From Xanthobacteraceae bacterium (GTDB lineage: Bacteria; Pseudomonadota; Alphaproteobacteria; Rhizobiales; Xanthobacteraceae): a DNA stretch of 11,241 nucleotides. Below are positions 1,316 to 10,280 of the stretch, in pieces. The stretch is taken from assembly GCA_030044035.1 (NCBI GenBank), contig JASHWN010000490.1, positions 1 to 11,241 on the forward strand, read 5' to 3'. Each line of letters starts with the position of its first letter. Position 1 is the stretch's first letter. The position numbers were made by a program, and so were the translations under genes. Under the pieces are notes generated by a model, which had not been told where the DNA came from, ran no database searches, and saw nothing but the letters and a program-made list of their open reading frames with translations.

Positions 1316-2440
1316 TCAAATCAGCGAGACCAAACCGCCGCCGTGGCGTTCCAGGCGGCCGGCGATTTCCAGTTCGAGGAGCACGATGCGCACGACCCGT
1401 GGCGAAGTTTTGGAGAGCCGGATGAGATCGTCGACCGATACCGGCGCGGGGGAGAGCAGGCTGAGAAGGCGCGCGCGCTCGTCGGCTGCCGGCTCGCCGT
1501 CCTCCGCCCGCGCTTCGTCGGCACTATCCGGCTCGCGCACCGGCAGGCTCGCGCCGATGATCGGCTGCAGCACGGATATAATGTCGGCGGCTTCGGTCAC
1601 CGGCGTCGCGCCTTGCTTGAGCAGCCCATTGGTGCCCTCGGCACGCGGATCGAGCGGCGAGCCGGGCACGGCAAAGACCTCGCGGCCCTGTTCGAGTGCA
1701 AGCCGCGCCGTGATCAGTGAGCCCGATCGCTTTGCCGCCTCGACGATGACGACGCCGAGCGCGAGCCCGGAGATCAGGCGATTGCGCCGCGGAAAATCGC
1801 GCGCTCGCGGCTCCCAGCCGAACGGCATCTCGGTGAGCAGCACGCCCGCGGCCAAAATGTCCTCGGCCAGTTCGCCATGCTCGGGCGGATAAAGCCGATC
1901 GAGCCCGCCGGCGAGTACCGCGATGGTGCCGCTTTTTTCGAGGCTGGCGCGATGCGCGGCCGCATCGATGCCGCGGGCGAGGCCGGACACGGTCGCAAAG
2001 CCGGCTTCGCCGAGCCCGCGCGCGATGCGCTCGGTGAGTTTTAGGCCCGCCGCCGAAGCATTGCGCGAACCGACCACCGCGACGGCGGGCAGCGCCAGCG
2101 CCGCGCGGTTGCCGCGCACCGCGATCAGCGGCGGCGCATCGTCGATCGCCTGCAGCCGGCGCGGATAATCGGCTTCGCCGAGCGCGATGAACTCCGCGCC
2201 GCATTGCTCCGCCGCTTCGATCTCACGCTCAGCCTCCGCGCGCGAACAAATCTTCGGCGTCACGGTCCCGCCGCCGCGCCGGGCCAGCGCCGGCAACGCC
2301 TCGATCGCCGCCCGCGCGCCGCCGCAATGATTGAGGAGAGCGCGAAATGTGCGCGGCCCGATGTTCTGGCTGCGGATAAGCCGCAGCCAGTCGGTCCGTT
2401 GCTCGTCGCTAAGCTGAACGCTGCCTCGGCTCTCGTTCAC
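1316..2440 (-). CDS. dprA: DNA-processing protein DprA (RecA loader for incoming single-stranded DNA)
   Basis: A 374-residue protein. The DprA family binds single-stranded DNA taken up in transformation and loads RecA on it in the cytoplasm. The gene is also conserved in bacteria not known to be transformable. The Rossmann-like core shows AVVGSRNAS (121-129), [13 protein letters not shown] (152-164), [14 protein letters not shown] (175-188), [11 protein letters not shown] (216-226), and the SGSLITA segment (239-245). An acidic, low-complexity linker (about 302-325) leads to a C-terminal winged-helix domain (about 326-374). An N-terminal SAM-like region is plausible around residues 15-50. The start codon is GTG at 2440, preceded by a GGGGG-containing stretch (GCGGGGGCA) that can serve as Shine-Dalgarno. 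It lies 69 bases after plsY on the same strand. Confidence 0.96.
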
Positions 2441-2509: not shown

Positions 2510-3115
2510 TTACGCGGCCCGCCCGATTTTGCTCTCGCTACCGCTCATAAGGCGGCCGATGTTGGCGCGGTGCATGATCCAGAGCAGGATCGTTAGCAGC
2601 GCGAACAGCTCGGCTTCCAAAGGCGCGCCCCACCACCAGAGAAAAAACGGCGTCAGCACGCTGGCGATCAGCGCGGCGAGCGAGGAGTAGCGGCTCAGCG
2701 CGGCAACCGCGAGCCAAATGGCGCAGAAGAATAAGGCTGCCGGCCAGGCGAGGCCGAGCAACAGGCCGATATAGATGGCGACGCCCTTGCCGCCTTTGAA
2801 GCCGAGCCATACCGGAAACAAATGGCCGAGAAAGGCGCCGAGCACGGCGGTGAGTGCGGCGTCGCGGCCTAAGAAATGGCCTACGATCAATACCGCGACC
2901 GTGCCTTTGAGCATATCGCCGAGCAATGTTGCGGCGGCGAGCGCTTTCCTGCCGGTGCGCAGCACGTTGGTGGCGCCGATATTGCCGGAGCCGATGCTGC
3001 GCACGTCAGGCGCGCCAAACAAACGCGTCAGCAGAACGCCAAACGGAATCGAGCCGCACAGGTAGCCGAAGACGAAAGCGGCCAGACAAGCGGCCCAAAG
3101 CGGCATGCCGGCCAT
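2510..3115 (-). CDS. plsY: Glycerol-3-phosphate acyltransferase PlsY (acyl-phosphate dependent)
   Basis: A 201-residue integral inner-membrane enzyme that transfers an acyl group from acyl-phosphate to sn-glycerol 3-phosphate, giving lysophosphatidate, the first committed step of phospholipid synthesis (partner PlsX makes the acyl-phosphate). All signature blocks are present: GSIPFG (21-26), [15 protein letters not shown] (39-53), [17 protein letters not shown] (97-113) and HRANIGRLM (182-190). Hydrophobic segments lie near 5-28, 58-80, 88-104, 113-138, 143-160 and 168-182. The length is normal for the family. The ATG at 3115 sits only three bases past the pyrB stop, so translation is probably coupled. 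Its own ribosome binding site is weak. Confidence 0.97.
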
Positions 3116-3118
3116 GGT

Positions 3119-4558
3119 CTAACCGGCGCGCGCCTTTTTGCCGGGCTCGCGCGGCGCAAAGCCGGCGCGCTCGGCTTCCGCCTCGTTCGGATAGATCACG
3201 ACGTGCTTGAGCTTGTCGTTGGTCGTACGGCACAGCGCATGCATTCCGGCCGAATAGGTGCGGCGCGTCAGGTCGCCGACGGCAAAACGATTGGCGGCCT
3301 CGTCCTCGACATCGGTCTCGCAATAGAGGCAGCGCAGCTTGCAGCGGTGCTGTGTCGGCTCGTCGATGACGTAAAACTTGTTGGCCGCGTATTGCCGCTC
3401 CGACGGATCGGCGACGATGCAATTGGCATTGCCGCATTGCACGCCGGTGCCGATCGGCTGGGCGTAGATCGGATGCTCCGGCTTGGCAAAACCGCCCGGG
3501 AATTGGTGCAGCGATTTGTTCTTGTGTAGATGCAGAAGCAGCGAAATCAGCGCCATGCGCACCGGCACGCCGTAGGCGGCCTGCTGGAAGTAGATGGCGC
3601 GGCGGTCCTTGTCGAGCGCCACGTCGAGTTCGTTGACCCGCGGCAGCGGATGCATGACGCTCGCTTCCGAATATTTTTCGTCGCCCATGAATTTGGCGTC
3701 GATCTTCGGATAGGGCCGCTCCTTCTCGGTCCAGCGCTCCTTCTGAAAGCGCGTGACATAGACTGCGTCGATCTTTTTGCGGACGATGTCCTCGTGTTTT
3801 TCCGGCTCCGGGATCAGCGCGAGCTGATGCGGCTGGTCGGCGGTGACGTAGAGCGCGTCGATCGCGCCGCTCTCGGCCTCGCCGGAGCCCTTTGCCACCA
3901 TACGGCTGTGAAATTCTTCGCGCAGGCGGCGGTCGACATGCGGCGGCAGCTCCATGCCGGGCGCCGGCAAGGGATCGATGGTGGCGCCGAAGCGGGCCAG
4001 CGCATAGACGAACGAGTGAATGGTGCGGCTGCCTTTCAGGTCGCCCGAGATCGCGACCTTCATGTTGCGCAGGCTTTTGTTCTTGGAGCGCAGCGTGAAC
4101 AAATCGCACAAGGTCTGGGTCGGATGCTCGTGGCTGCCGTCGCCGCCGTTGATCACCGGGATTTGCGCATATTCGGCGGCAAGCCGCGCCGCGCCTTCGC
4201 GCGGGTGGCGGATGACGACGATGTCGCAGTAATTGGAGATCACGCGGATGGTGTCGGCGAGGCTTTCGCCCTTGGCGGCGGAACTCACCGCCGGATCGGC
4301 GCTGGTGATGTTGGCGCCGCCGAGCCGCAGCATGGCGCTCTCGAACGACAGCCGCGTGCGCGTCGAGGGCTCATAGAACAGGCTCGCCAGGATGTGTTTC
4401 GCGGCCAGGTCGGTGCTGCGGCCGATGCGGTAGGGAACGTTGGGATCAGCCAGGTTCTGCAAAAACCCCTGGGCGACCTCGAAGATCGTCTCGATCTCCT
4501 TGTTACTGAGGTCGTTGATCGAAATGATGTGGCGGGTCGGCGGCAGAGCCTTGGTCAT
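3119..4558 (-). CDS. pyrB: Aspartate carbamoyltransferase with C-terminal PyrI-like zinc-ribbon extension
   Basis: A 479-residue enzyme that condenses carbamoyl phosphate and L-aspartate to N-carbamoyl-aspartate, the committed step of pyrimidine synthesis. The catalytic part (about 1-345) carries every expected block: YEPSTRTRLSFESA (62-75, carbamoyl-phosphate site), the mobile-loop SSAAKGES with K96, HEHPTQTLCDLF (144-155), DLKGSRTIHS (173-182), YVTRFQKERW (267-276) and VMHPLPRVNE (301-310). Residues 371-415 then match the zinc domain of the ATCase regulatory chain PyrI: C375-x4-C380 (CGNANC) and C410-x2-C413 (CLYCE), with another Cys at 406. The PyrI nucleotide-binding domain is missing, since only about 28 residues link the two parts. 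A further tail of about 60 residues follows. A loop near 216-262 is about 30 residues longer than in E. coli PyrB. The ATG at 4558 is chosen because homology begins there; the 33 residues possible upstream look non-native. It is the first gene of the unit, with no pyrC beside it. Confidence 0.95.
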   Translation of the reverse strand: MTKALPPTRHIISINDLSNKEIETIFEVAQGFLQNLADPNVPYRIGRSTDLAAKHILASLFYEPSTRTRLSFESAMLRLGGANITSADPAVSSAAKGESLADTIRVISNYCDIVVIRHPREGAARLAAEYAQIPVINGGDGSHEHPTQTLCDLFTLRSKNKSLRNMKVAISGDLKGSRTIHSFVYALARFGATIDPLPAPGMELPPHVDRRLREEFHSRMVAKGSGEAESGAIDALYVTADQPHQLALIPEPEKHEDIVRKKIDAVYVTRFQKERWTEKERPYPKIDAKFMGDEKYSEASVMHPLPRVNELDVALDKDRRAIYFQQAAYGVPVRMALISLLLHLHKNKSLHQFPGGFAKPEHPIYAQPIGTGVQCGNANCIVADPSERQYAANKFYVIDEPTQHRCKLRCLYCETDVEDEAANRFAVGDLTRRTYSAGMHALCRTTNDKLKHVVIYPNEAEAERAGFAPREPGKKARAG

Positions 4559-4567
4559 TAAAGCGCT

Positions 4568-4597
4568 GCTATAGGCCCAACGGCAGCGTGCCGGCAA
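4568..4597 (-). promoter_or_regulatory. Possible promoter of the pyrB-plsY-dprA unit
   Basis: On the minus strand TTGCCG (4592-4597) and TATAGC (4568-4573) are separated by 18 bases, resembling a sigma-70 promoter. The predicted start would lie only a few bases before the pyrB ATG, so the leader would be very short. The match is weak and could be chance in the 142-base divergent gap between pyrB and the aidB-like gene. Confidence 0.25.
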
Positions 4598-4700
4598 GTC
4601 TGCCTGAGCCGGCGCGGCGCAGTGATACACCGAAAAAGCGGGAAAGACAGCGCGCAACCGGGCGGCGTGCTACGATTGAGTCTCCGCGAGGTCTTTTGCC

Positions 4701-6329
4701 ATGGCCGCCGGCTCGCGCTTCGATACCCACGAGGTCGTCAACCAGTCGCCCGCTTTCGAGAACGTCGACCTGTTCGCGAGCGACGGTCCGCTGGTGGAAG
4801 CCGTCAAGGCGAACGGCGGTGGCGGCGCCGGCCTCATCGCGGCACTGTCGGCTTTCGGCCGCCATTGGGGCAGCGCCGAGATGATCGCGCTCGGCCGGGC
4901 GGCCAACGAAAGCCCGCCGCGTCTGCATGCGTTCGACGCCAAGGGTTTTCGCCGCGACACGGTCGAGTTCCATCCGGCCTATCACCGGCTGATGGGCGAG
5001 AGCATCGCCGCCGGCCTGCACGCCTCGACCTGGACCGAGCACGGCCGGCACGCGGCGGCACCTTCCGAAGTTTTGCGCGCGGCGAGGTTCTACATGGCCG
5101 CCCAGGTCGAGACCGGGCACTTGTGCCCGATCACCATGACGCGCGCAGCGCTGGCGGCGCTCGCGGCCGATACGGCGCTCCTCGGCAAGATCGCGCCAAA
5201 GGTGCTCAGCCGCAGCTACGACCCGACGTTCCGGCCGTGGTGGCAAAAGTCCGGCATGACGCTCGGCATGGGCATGACCGAAAAACAGGGCGGCACCGAT
5301 GTGCGCGCCAACACCACGACGGCGGTGCCTGACGGCGGGGGCTACGCTATCGTCGGCCACAAATGGTTCATGTCGGCGCCGATGAGCGACGCCTTTCTGG
5401 TGCTGGCGCAGGCGCCGGGCGGACTCACCTGCTTTGTCATGCCGCGATTTCGGCCCGACGGCTCGGTCAATGCGATGCGCCTGCAACGGCTCAAGGACAA
5501 ACTCGGCAACCGCTCCAATGCTTCGAGCGAAGTCGAGTTCACGGACGCCTTCGCCTGGCGGATCGGGGCGGAGGGCGCCGGCATGCGCACCATTTTGCAA
5601 ATGGTGCAGCTGACGCGGCTCGACTGCGCGATCGCGTCTGCCGGCCTGATGCGCATGGCGTTGGCGCAAGCCGTGCACCATTGCCGGCACCGCAATGTGT
5701 TCGGCAAGCGGCTTATCGAGGAGCCGATGATGCGGGCCGTGCTCGCCGACTTGGCGCTCGAGGTCGAAGGCGCCGTGGCGCTGGTCATGCGACTCTGCCG
5801 CGCCTTCGACCGCGCCGCCGACGATGCGGGCGAGGCGGCGTATGCGCGCCTCGTCACGCCGGCCGCAAAGTATTGGATCTGCAAAACGGCCCCGGCTTTC
5901 ATCTACGAGACGATGGAGTGCCTCGGCGGCAACGGCTACGTCGAAGAGAGCATGCTGCCGCGGCTCTATCGCGAGGCGCCGGTCAATGCCATTTGGGAAG
6001 GCTCCGGCAATGTCATGTGCCTCGACGTCCTGCGCGCGCTCAAGGGCGAGGCGGAAGCTGAGGTCGCGGCTGCGTTATCACGCGACACCGGGATTGCGCC
6101 GGCCGACAGCGGCGCCGCGGATTTGGATGAAGCGCATGCGCGCGCGCTGGTCGGTAAGCTGGCGCTGATGGCGAGCGCGCAAGCGCTCAAGTCGAGCGCG
6201 CCCGCCATCGTTGCGCATGCATTCGTTCGCACGCGGCTCACGCAACAGCATGCGACATTGTATGGCGCAGCTGTGCTCGACCCGCCGTTGATGCAGTTCC
6301 TTCTAAAGCGCGTGCTGCCGGAAGCTTGA
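4701..6329 (+). CDS. aidB: AidB-type acyl-CoA dehydrogenase homologue (alkylation-response flavoprotein)
   Basis: A 542-residue flavoprotein, nearly the length of E. coli AidB (541), and similar to it from end to end as I recall that sequence. E. coli AidB binds FAD and DNA, is induced by alkylating agents with Ada, and protects DNA, although its enzymatic role is unsettled. Shared blocks include LCPITMT (141-147), GMGMTEKQGGTDV (189-201), VGHKWFMSAPMSDA (218-231), RLKDKLGNRSNASSEVEF (263-280), LGGNGYVEES (408-417), LPRLYREAPVN (419-429) and WEGSGNVMCLDVLR (432-445). The Glu of WEGSGN is at the position of the catalytic base in many acyl-CoA dehydrogenases. The ATG at 4701 has GAGG about nine bases upstream. 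No ada gene is present here. It converges with ruvX across a 20-base gap. An isovaleryl-CoA dehydrogenase label is possible in databases, but the 542-residue length and these motifs favour AidB. Confidence 0.93.
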   Translation: MAAGSRFDTHEVVNQSPAFENVDLFASDGPLVEAVKANGGGGAGLIAALSAFGRHWGSAEMIALGRAANESPPRLHAFDAKGFRRDTVEFHPAYHRLMGESIAAGLHASTWTEHGRHAAAPSEVLRAARFYMAAQVETGHLCPITMTRAALAALAADTALLGKIAPKVLSRSYDPTFRPWWQKSGMTLGMGMTEKQGGTDVRANTTTAVPDGGGYAIVGHKWFMSAPMSDAFLVLAQAPGGLTCFVMPRFRPDGSVNAMRLQRLKDKLGNRSNASSEVEFTDAFAWRIGAEGAGMRTILQMVQLTRLDCAIASAGLMRMALAQAVHHCRHRNVFGKRLIEEPMMRAVLADLALEVEGAVALVMRLCRAFDRAADDAGEAAYARLVTPAAKYWICKTAPAFIYETMECLGGNGYVEESMLPRLYREAPVNAIWEGSGNVMCLDVLRALKGEAEAEVAAALSRDTGIAPADSGAADLDEAHARALVGKLALMASAQALKSSAPAIVAHAFVRTRLTQQHATLYGAAVLDPPLMQFLLKRVLPEA

Positions 6330-6349: not shown

Positions 6350-6823
6350 TCAGCGCGCGGCAAGTCCCGCCAACCGATCGAGTGCGCCCTGCAAAATGTA
6401 GGTCGCGGCGTGCTGGTCGATGACGGCTTTGCGCTTGGCGCGGCTTAAGTCGGCGGCGATCAGGGCGCGCTCCACGGCGGCGGTCGAGAGCCGCTCGTCC
6501 CACAGCCCGATCGGCAATTCAGTGAGCTTAGCGAAATTGCGGGCGAAGGCGCGCGTCGCCTGGGCGCGCGGACCTTCGCTGCCGTCCATGTTGACCGGTA
6601 GCCCGAGCACGTAAGCGAGGGCGCGGCGCTCGGCCGCGAGCGCGAGGATGCGCTGTGCATCGAGCGTAAAACGTCTGCGCATAATGGTTGCGACCGGCGC
6701 CGCGACGCGGCGGTCCGGATCGCTGACCGCAACGCCGATGGTCTTGGTGCCGAGATCAAGGCCGATCAGCGCGCCGCGCGCGGGCAACACAGCAGCAATT
6801 TCGATGAGCGGAACGACCGGCAT
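6350..6823 (-). CDS. ruvX: YqgF/RuvX family putative pre-16S rRNA nuclease (Holliday-junction-resolvase fold)
   Basis: A 157-residue cytoplasmic nuclease with an RNase H-like fold. In E. coli YqgF takes part in 16S rRNA 5' maturation; older annotation calls it a putative Holliday junction resolvase. Motifs in order: LIGLDLGTKTIGVAVSDP (19-36) with acidic D23, VLGLPVNMDGSEGPRAQ (72-88), LWDERLSTAAVE (108-119), and D136 in DQHAATYIL (136-144). These supply the conserved acidic cluster. About 15 residues precede the first strand, so the true start could be slightly downstream, but the ATG at 6823 is the only Met before the conserved region. It is divergent from the PEBP gene (112-base gap) and convergent with aidB. 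Confidence 0.95.
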   Translation of the reverse strand: MPVVPLIEIAAVLPARGALIGLDLGTKTIGVAVSDPDRRVAAPVATIMRRRFTLDAQRILALAAERRALAYVLGLPVNMDGSEGPRAQATRAFARNFAKLTELPIGLWDERLSTAAVERALIAADLSRAKRKAVIDQHAATYILQGALDRLAGLAAR

Positions 6824-9477: not shown

Positions 9478-9553
9478 GGGCGGTTAGCTCAGTTGGTAGA
9501 GCGTCTGCTTTACACGCAGAATGTCGGCGGTTCGAGTCCGTCACCGCCCACCA
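9478..9553 (+). tRNA. tRNA-Val, anticodon TAC
   Basis: A 76-base cloverleaf with encoded CCA. Acceptor arm GGGCGGT (9478-9484) pairs with ACCGCCC (9543-9549). D-arm GCTC-AGTTGGTA-GAGC. Anticodon stem TCTGC/GCAGA with loop TTTACAC, giving TAC, which reads GUA and other valine codons. Variable loop ATGTC. T-arm GGCGG-TTCGAGT-CCGTC, with one G-U pair. Discriminator A and CCA at 9550-9553. Confidence 0.98.
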
Positions 9554-9675: not shown

Positions 9676-9969
9676 TCAGATCGCTTCTTTGAGTTCTTTC
9701 GCGGCGCGGAAGGCAACCTTCTTGCTCGCCTTGATCTGGATCGGCTCGCCGGTCGCGGGATTACGGCCCATGCGGGCGGCGCGCTTGCGCACCTGCAGAA
9801 TGCCGAGGCCGCCAATGCGGATGCGCTCGCCCTTTTTCAGATGCTTGACGATCTGCCCGACCAGTCCGGCGAGAATGGCCTCCGACTGCTTCTTTGAAAG
9901 CTCGTTGTCTTCGGCAAGGCTTGCCGCAAGGTGCTTCAATGTCACGGTAGTGGCTGGTTTGGTTGCCAT
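9676..9969 (-). CDS. HU family DNA-binding protein
   Basis: A 97-residue nucleoid-associated protein that binds and bends DNA as a dimer without strict sequence specificity. A seven-residue Thr/Ala-rich lead (ATKPATT) precedes the usual HU helices. The helical base LKHLAASLAEDNELSKKQSEA is at 11-31. The beta-saddle runs from LKKGERIRIGGLGILQVRKR (44-63) through the DNA-intercalating arm RNPATGEPIQI (69-79), with the RNP tip intact, and the C-terminal helix KASKKVAFRAAKELKEA. The frame opens 48 bases earlier, but the ATG at 9969 has a GAGGAGGG site just upstream and starts the homology. It differs from canonical HupB, whose N-terminus is shorter, so it may be a second HU paralogue. It is flanked by tRNA-Val and tRNA-Asp, both on the opposite strand. 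Confidence 0.95.
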   Translation of the reverse strand: MATKPATTVTLKHLAASLAEDNELSKKQSEAILAGLVGQIVKHLKKGERIRIGGLGILQVRKRAARMGRNPATGEPIQIKASKKVAFRAAKELKEAI

Positions 9970-10160
9970 TTGGCCCTCCTCGATGAAGCGGTGTCGGGGA
10001 AACAGCCCCCTCGCCAATGCTGCAGTTAGACGATTCGGCTTGACCTGACCACGCTCGTTTTGCCGATTCCACCGATGTTTTCAGCATTGCTGCGCTATGT
10101 CGAGTCCTGTTGTGGCGGCTCTAAGGCAGTTTGTAGAACCGCAGTTGAGCCCTGAAATCC

Positions 10161-10203: not shown

Positions 10204-10280
10204 GGGGGCGTAGCTCAGTTGGTTAGAGCGCTAGCCTGTCACGCTAGAGGTCGCGGGTTCGAGCCCCGTCGCTCCCGCCA
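10204..10280 (+). tRNA. tRNA-Asp, anticodon GTC
   Basis: A 77-base cloverleaf with encoded CCA. Acceptor GGGGGCG (10204-10210) pairs with CGCTCCC (10270-10276), with one G-U pair. D-arm GCTC-AGTTGGTTA-GAGC. Anticodon stem CTAGC/GCTAG with loop CTGTCAC, giving GTC (Asp). Variable loop AGGTC. T-arm GCGGG-TTCGAGC-CCCGT. Discriminator G73, as expected for tRNA-Asp, then CCA at 10278-10280. Confidence 0.98.

Follow-up and report, generated by a model that had tools for sequence, protein, structure and literature searches.

How does an aspartate carbamoyltransferase (ATCase) operate when its own chain carries the zinc ribbon of the regulatory protein PyrI and lacks the PyrI domain that binds nucleotides? 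The question is raised by a pyrB gene in an 11,241-nucleotide stretch of DNA from a Xanthobacteraceae bacterium (contig JASHWN010000490.1, hereafter the window). A preliminary description had proposed that the product of this gene joins a catalytic part to a PyrI-like ribbon alone. In the consulted passages of the review PMC4581275, regulatory dimers either separate from or fused to the catalytic chain are the sole forms mentioned.

Domain architecture and conservation

The gene, the parts of its product and the neighbouring genes lie in the window as follows.

3119..4558, minus strand: pyrB-Zn, the ATCase fusion of 479 aa, stop codon included (ATG at 4558, stop at 3121-3119)
3524..4558, minus strand: catalytic part, residues 1-345, ATCase fold
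3791..3910, minus strand: insert region, residues ~217-256, IDALYVTADQPHQL, present in long forms only
3443..3523, minus strand: linker, residues 346-372
3302..3442, minus strand: PyrI-type zinc ribbon, residues 373-419, C375-x4-C380...C410-x2-C413
3143..3301, minus strand: probable degenerate Ada-type metal-binding domain, residues ~420-472, without zinc cysteines
2510..3115, minus strand: plsY, acyltransferase (PF02660), its ATG 3 bases past the pyrB stop
1316..2440, minus strand: dprA (PF02481, PF21102, PF17782)
4701..6329, plus strand: aidB-like acyl-CoA dehydrogenase gene (PF18158), a divergent neighbour
6350..6823, minus strand: ruvX (PF03652), which flanks the pyrB locus in relatives too

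The 479-residue protein scores 159.9 bits for OTCace_N and 61.8 bits for OTCace in Pfam, and exceeds the cut-off of the NCBIfam ATCase model TIGR00670 (286.6 versus 236.95 bits). The four cysteines foreseen at residues 375, 380, 410 and 413 lie exactly there, in a reading frame on the minus strand, a strand having gone unnamed before. Their assignment to a PyrI-type ribbon is borne out by PyrI_C (PF02748), which matches residues 373-420 with 26.2 bits against a gathering cut-off of 23.4. Only this region aligns with Escherichia coli PyrI (E 2e-4 in a one-sequence comparison, 29% identity over 62 columns), and only the last part of the whole-PyrI model TIGR00240 is matched (profile positions 102-145 of 150; 22.4 bits, cut-off 148.55). 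The Pfam search found no PF01948, the nucleotide-binding N-domain of PyrI, in the protein at E up to 1, in agreement with the earlier remark that the chain has no room for it. The fused PyrB-PyrI of Thermotoga maritima likewise attaches regulatory material to a catalytic chain (PMC4581275), but the fusion in the window carries the PyrI zinc ribbon only; it scores 89.8 bits for the full-fusion model PRK13376 (cut-off 800), and the distinction drawn beforehand between the two types therefore holds. A zinc-only ATCase architecture without the allosteric domain is real. A frame-shift artefact as its origin, and a carbamoyltransferase other than ATCase as the identity of the protein, were each weighed and dropped.

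The predicted monomer model has a pLDDT of 81.8 and a pTM of 0.84. In the linker (residues 351-359) and the insert (223-249) the pLDDT falls below 50, so the placement of the domains relative to each other is uncertain. The insert region makes the aspartate domain ~30 residues longer than that of Pyrococcus abyssi ATCase at the same place.

The architecture is not a one-off. Searched with residues 340-479, 688 candidates yielded 534 proteins at E <= 0.001; with residues 346-425, 466 of 468 candidates reached E <= 10. Each search listed 120 of its matches. A length filter on 121 listed proteins left 109 sequences for alignment, that of the window among them, all picked up through similarity to the C-terminal region. 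Within these 109 sequences from the matches listed, the four ribbon cysteines are invariant, as are N377, N379, Y412 and E414; in another alignment, of 66 members, each matches PyrI_C at E up to 1. The ribbon is thus not a chance resemblance, given the 66 PyrI_C matches and the cysteines identical in 109 of 109 sequences.

A wider set of 154 fusions comprised the window, listed proteins of at least 440 aa, the 360-residue P0154 described below and loci that belong to further families and orders. CxNxxC...CxYC is present in all 154, a tally that is no unbiased count because the set was gathered by similarity. In the catalytic part, S80, K84, R105, H134, Q137, R167, R229, Q231, L267 and R296 (E. 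coli numbering) are kept in 154 of 154; S52-T53-R54-T55 is kept in 153, the remaining row being gapped there, and P266 in 153. These are residues of the E. coli ATCase active site. A reading of the C-terminal part as a dead leftover of an earlier PyrB-PyrI fusion is very improbable: the missing allosteric domain and the modest PyrI_C score speak for it, but the retention of the four cysteines in the family, in two orders and in the P0154 lineage runs against the decay expected of such a remnant.

Our literature search, which covered open-access titles and the openings of abstracts, found no description of a zinc-only PyrB fusion. A protein database already lists PF02748 beside the ATCase domains, and some sources name the protein a catalytic subunit. 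The reservation entered at the outset, that the PyrI-like part might be a common and already described feature, thus applies in its first half, the part being common in the lineage and present in the database column, and finds no counterpart in the literature searched for its second. In three database entries (P0041, P0139 and P0149), the listed Pfam domains include plsY (PF02660) on top of the ATCase fusion, through either a true fusion or a sequencing error.

Distribution and ancestry of the fusions

Carriers of the C-terminal part make up 25 of the 391 genomes sampled from the family of the window, in 5 of 47 genera. A second family, f16, has 2 carriers in 28 genomes, and a second order, that of genome G1065, has 9 in 96, every one checked as a fusion. 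In the order sample, searched by PF02748 alone, 5 of 397 genomes gave a match, and the fusions were those of G000, G097 and G419. The match in G138 (L032) is no fusion and sits in what its sequence suggests is an NrdR-like zinc ribbon; that in G189 lies inside a 38-residue frame and was excluded from the fusion count.

The class sample gave PF02748 matches in 4 of 386 genomes, with fusions in G000 and G1065. The match in G786 and one of those in G1001 are separate PyrI genes adjoining pyrB, not fusions. The second G1001 match is an incomplete zinc-only fusion on contig C53 (3,678 bases), beside frames that resemble pyrC, pyrF, pyrK and pyrD; this piece is perhaps contamination. A search from it found one protein among 3 candidates, P0154, which was used in its place. 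In the phylum sample, searched with the catalytic part alone at E <= 1e-50, 3 of 397 genomes matched: that of the window and two with pyrI beside pyrB. By these counts, the fusions have a patchy distribution and are rare within the class. All 14 named fusion loci are metagenome-assembled (11 Xanthobacteraceae, 2 Hyphomicrobiales and 1 'Proteobacteria'), and the carrier bacteria appear to be known mainly from environmental DNA.

Two maximum-likelihood trees unite the alphaproteobacterial fusions in a single clade (100/100), which lies amid PyrI-partnered PyrBs and archaeal chains; the remaining PyrBs of the family group with Bacillus subtilis and, in the first tree, also with Aquifex. Long branches meet in the first tree, including those between the two PyrB groups; the second, without two of the three longest rows, keeps the groups apart and rejects a grouping of the fusions with the family's other PyrBs (p-AU 0.00115). 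Similarity to structures in the PDB follows the same division: the protein of the window scores highest with P. abyssi (251.5 bits, against 113.7 for B. subtilis), and the PyrB of the fusion-less locus L039 with B. subtilis (216.5 bits, against 142.3 for P. abyssi). Judged from these sequence comparisons, the catalytic chain is of the PyrI-partnered (class B) lineage. Its placement beside the archaeal sequences is weak in the first tree (85/90), and the second leaves the exact neighbour without resolution. Viral contigs in IMG/VR also carry ATCase-like chains (L057-L085; 28 loci including near-duplicates), whose best segments are 31-47% identical to the protein of the window; they were used only for the structure alignment and the tree.

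P0154 (360 aa, 27 member sequences) groups with a PyrBI catalytic chain (99/94). A single clade of P0154 and the other fusions is weakly rejected at p-AU 0.041, for a group named after the first tree had been seen, and P0154 may represent an independent origin of the zinc-only fusion.

Like the class B enzyme of E. coli, the fusion has a catalytic chain of that broad lineage and a CxNxxC...CxYC ribbon; it differs in being a single chain without the nucleotide-binding domain and in having an insert and an Ada-like tail. A separate PyrI, suggested as something to look for in the genome, did not turn up: the genome of the window has one PyrI_C over the cut-off, and PF01948 was not found in any of 36 carrier genomes at E <= 0.01, in a search that was positive in 7 of 14 controls, including E. 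coli.

The genome of the window likewise has one OTCace_N over the cut-off, but it is 68.4% complete, so the case for a sole ATCase rests on its relatives. For 12 carriers of 90% completeness or more, the best carbamoyltransferase after the fusion is in every case an ornithine carbamoyltransferase, and in 11 of them a second recognisable ATCase is missing. The twelfth, G008, has a third, divergent carbamoyltransferase-like gene beyond the fusion and the ornithine carbamoyltransferase (L042:6223-7260), with no NCBIfam match (E <= 1e-60).

The pyrB locus and the dihydroorotase-family gene

In relatives that lack the fusion, the gene order is ruvX-pyrB-pyrC-plsY-dprA (L037 and L039; L038 is the same, with no ruvX match in the fetched region). 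The PyrB of these relatives shares ~31-33% identity with the fusion. At 18 of the 20 fusion loci looked at, window included, plsY directly follows pyrB; L035 has a transporter-like frame between the two, and L092 is too short to tell. At none of these 20 loci is a pyrC seen next to the fusion. By hand comparison of positions, with the full neighbourhoods of non-carriers read in three, a dihydroorotase-family gene over the cut-off adjoins pyrB in 13 of 13 fusion-less genomes versus none of 27 carriers.

An active dihydroorotase has the motif DxHxH. The pyrB-linked copies have DMRAF or DIRAF at this place and lack HxH in all three read (L037, L038 and L039), and thus resemble pseudo-dihydroorotases. 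NCBIfam calls these linked copies PRK09059, 'dihydroorotase', despite the missing HxH, a name that may mislead annotators. The arrangement at the plsY-dprA locus of the relatives resembles class A2 ATCase, the Pseudomonas PyrB with its pseudo-dihydroorotase (PMC7053772). The fusion differs from class A2 in its catalytic chain, which is of another lineage by the topology test above, and in the absence of the partner gene; a pyrB-linked dihydroorotase or pseudo-dihydroorotase gene, by which class A was recognised, occurs in 0 of 27 carriers.

The carriers keep a dihydroorotase-family gene elsewhere in 26 of 27 genomes, over the TIGR00857 or TIGR00856 cut-off; the remaining one, G019 (89% complete), has no dihydroorotase over the cut-off. 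In the four of seven fetched regions for which the motif of an unlinked copy was seen, it is HxH in the genome of the window and QxH in the carriers G097 (L110) and G033 (L111) and the non-carrier G024 (L113). The copy in the genome of the window is over the TIGR00857 cut-off, and its allantoinase score is about equal and under the allantoinase cut-off.

The absence of the fusion from most sampled genomes suggests that it is a newcomer at the locus, which would have taken the place of the other arrangement and not have been displaced by it.

Several further frames were seen in the same surroundings. At L033:5386-7197, between dprA and plsY, a frame with a CxxxCxxC motif, which we take to resemble radical SAM proteins, is a lineage-specific insertion, as is the presumed transporter-like frame of L035, at 3729-5333. 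Within the window, a small frame at 9676-10017 on the minus strand, presumably resembling the HU DNA-binding protein, lies between the genes for tRNA-Val and tRNA-Asp (9478-9553 and 10204-10280, plus strand).

The Ada-like tail and the assembly of the enzyme

The preliminary description was right about the zinc-only architecture and passed over three things: the position of the gene where relatives have pyrB and a dihydroorotase-family gene, the ~30-residue insert, and the further conserved stretch at residues 420-479 with its Ada-like module. In this last stretch, A462 is kept in 109 of 109, G466 in 107 and R470 in 108 of the aligned sequences from the matches listed. Residues ~420-472 resemble an Ada-type domain that has degenerated and lost its cysteines, by sequence and fold similarity, over residues ~418-472, to the N-terminal metal-binding domain of Ada (PF02805). 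Against a gathering cut-off of 23, this model gives 13.5 bits for the window, 24.6 for L088, 19.0 for L087, 18.8 for L091, 18.6 for L090, 15.0 for L086 and none for L030; 3 of 66 close relatives match at E <= 1. The Ada N-domain has four zinc-ligand cysteines. The tail differs from it in being attached to a biosynthetic enzyme and in that the alignments contain no conserved cysteine after residue 413, leaving the Ada zinc ligands without a counterpart.

Insert and tail are both present in 150 long forms (149 recognised by the insert motif, and L055 from a variant of it spotted on inspection) and both missing in four short ones, a tail being counted as more than 35 residues after the ribbon. 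The short fusions L089, L051 and L093, with frames of 388-403 aa, branch below the long-form clade (support 100/99), which indicates that the ribbon came first and the insert and Ada tail later.

A divergent aidB-like gene adjoins the fusion in the window and in eight other loci (L030, L031, L033, L035, L036, L040, L041 and L056), and is not found between ruvX and pyrB in L034 and L051. AidB is a member of the Ada regulon in E. coli; its presence beside an Ada-like tail is possibly a coincidence. This neighbour, together with the conserved tail positions and the likely Ada ancestry, would fit a tail that serves as a new regulatory or partner-binding module for a metabolite, DNA or a protein, through which the enzyme is regulated in another way. 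Such an effector or partner site would contradict an unregulated enzyme. We consider this unlikely, as the zinc and methyl-acceptor cysteines of Ada have no counterpart in the tail, the short forms manage without a tail, and the aidB link fails at two loci and draws on a regulon role known from E. coli.

A somewhat stronger contender, still doubtful, is that ribbon and tail bridge a pair of catalytic trimers to give a hexamer or a bigger assembly, in which homotropic cooperativity is kept without nucleotide effectors. Class A and class B holoenzymes both join two trimers, through dihydroorotase dimers and PyrI dimers, respectively (PMC7053772), and the insert and tail of the fusions occur together. 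That co-occurrence may be a single event, however, because the two lie on one branch of the tree; the insert is of low confidence in the monomer model, and short forms lacking both mean that bridging by the tail is no general property.

We favour, as somewhat better than an even proposition, a working ATCase, probably the only one of the cell, in which a class B chain and a captive PyrI ribbon that docks on and stabilises its own trimer act without PyrI-type control by CTP and ATP. Each ribbon would dock at the PyrI zinc-domain site on one of the catalytic chains of the trimer to which it belongs, and would fix the trimer in a stable, active conformation, in line with the docking or trimer-stabilising role raised beforehand; classical control by CTP and ATP would be lost. 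The nucleotide-binding domain is absent, and CTP and ATP are therefore left with no PyrI-type site to act through; from its sequence, the enzyme is probably without the classical switch. In long forms, including that of the window, the probable degenerate Ada-type domain may pack as a structural cap or an oligomerisation surface. The enzyme would also differ from class C, the bare catalytic trimer, in carrying a PyrI ribbon, as judged from its sequence.

Markby, Zhou and Schachman (1991) reportedly found that the PyrI zinc domain, on its own, forms a stable complex with the E. coli catalytic trimer and changes its kinetics. Their complex resembles the fusion in pairing a zinc domain with a catalytic trimer in the absence of the nucleotide domain, and differs in consisting of two laboratory-made polypeptides, where the fusion is a natural, covalent one that has a further domain. 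Other studies of the zinc-binding domain are named in the reference list of PMC6981877. Because the fusion occupies the place of another PyrB and a pseudo-dihydroorotase-like partner, its built-in ribbon may fill the stabilising role of that partner. In Pseudomonas aeruginosa, the catalytic chain has no activity when its pseudo-dihydroorotase is missing (PMC7053772), which makes replacement by a self-sufficient enzyme plausible.

More tentatively, and with the balance of probability against it, the fusions could form a new structural class of ATCase. In several alphaproteobacterial lineages, a class B chain with a PyrI ribbon would have taken over the locus from another chain together with its pseudo-enzyme scaffold, and would then have recruited a dead Ada domain as a scaffold. 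The result would be a self-contained enzyme, its assembly and control unlike those of the three textbook classes, and the zinc-only design would have arisen at least twice.

ATCase is a textbook model of allostery, and the effect of the grip of PyrI on the catalytic trimer has so far been approached with laboratory-made pieces. A natural enzyme that has the grip domain alone lets this effect be asked about directly, and within the family short forms, long forms and a possible second origin can be compared. Related bacteria would hold, at one locus, an essential enzyme in two alternative quaternary designs and, if the recruitment is true, a repair-protein domain stripped of its chemistry would be an unexpected source of scaffold.
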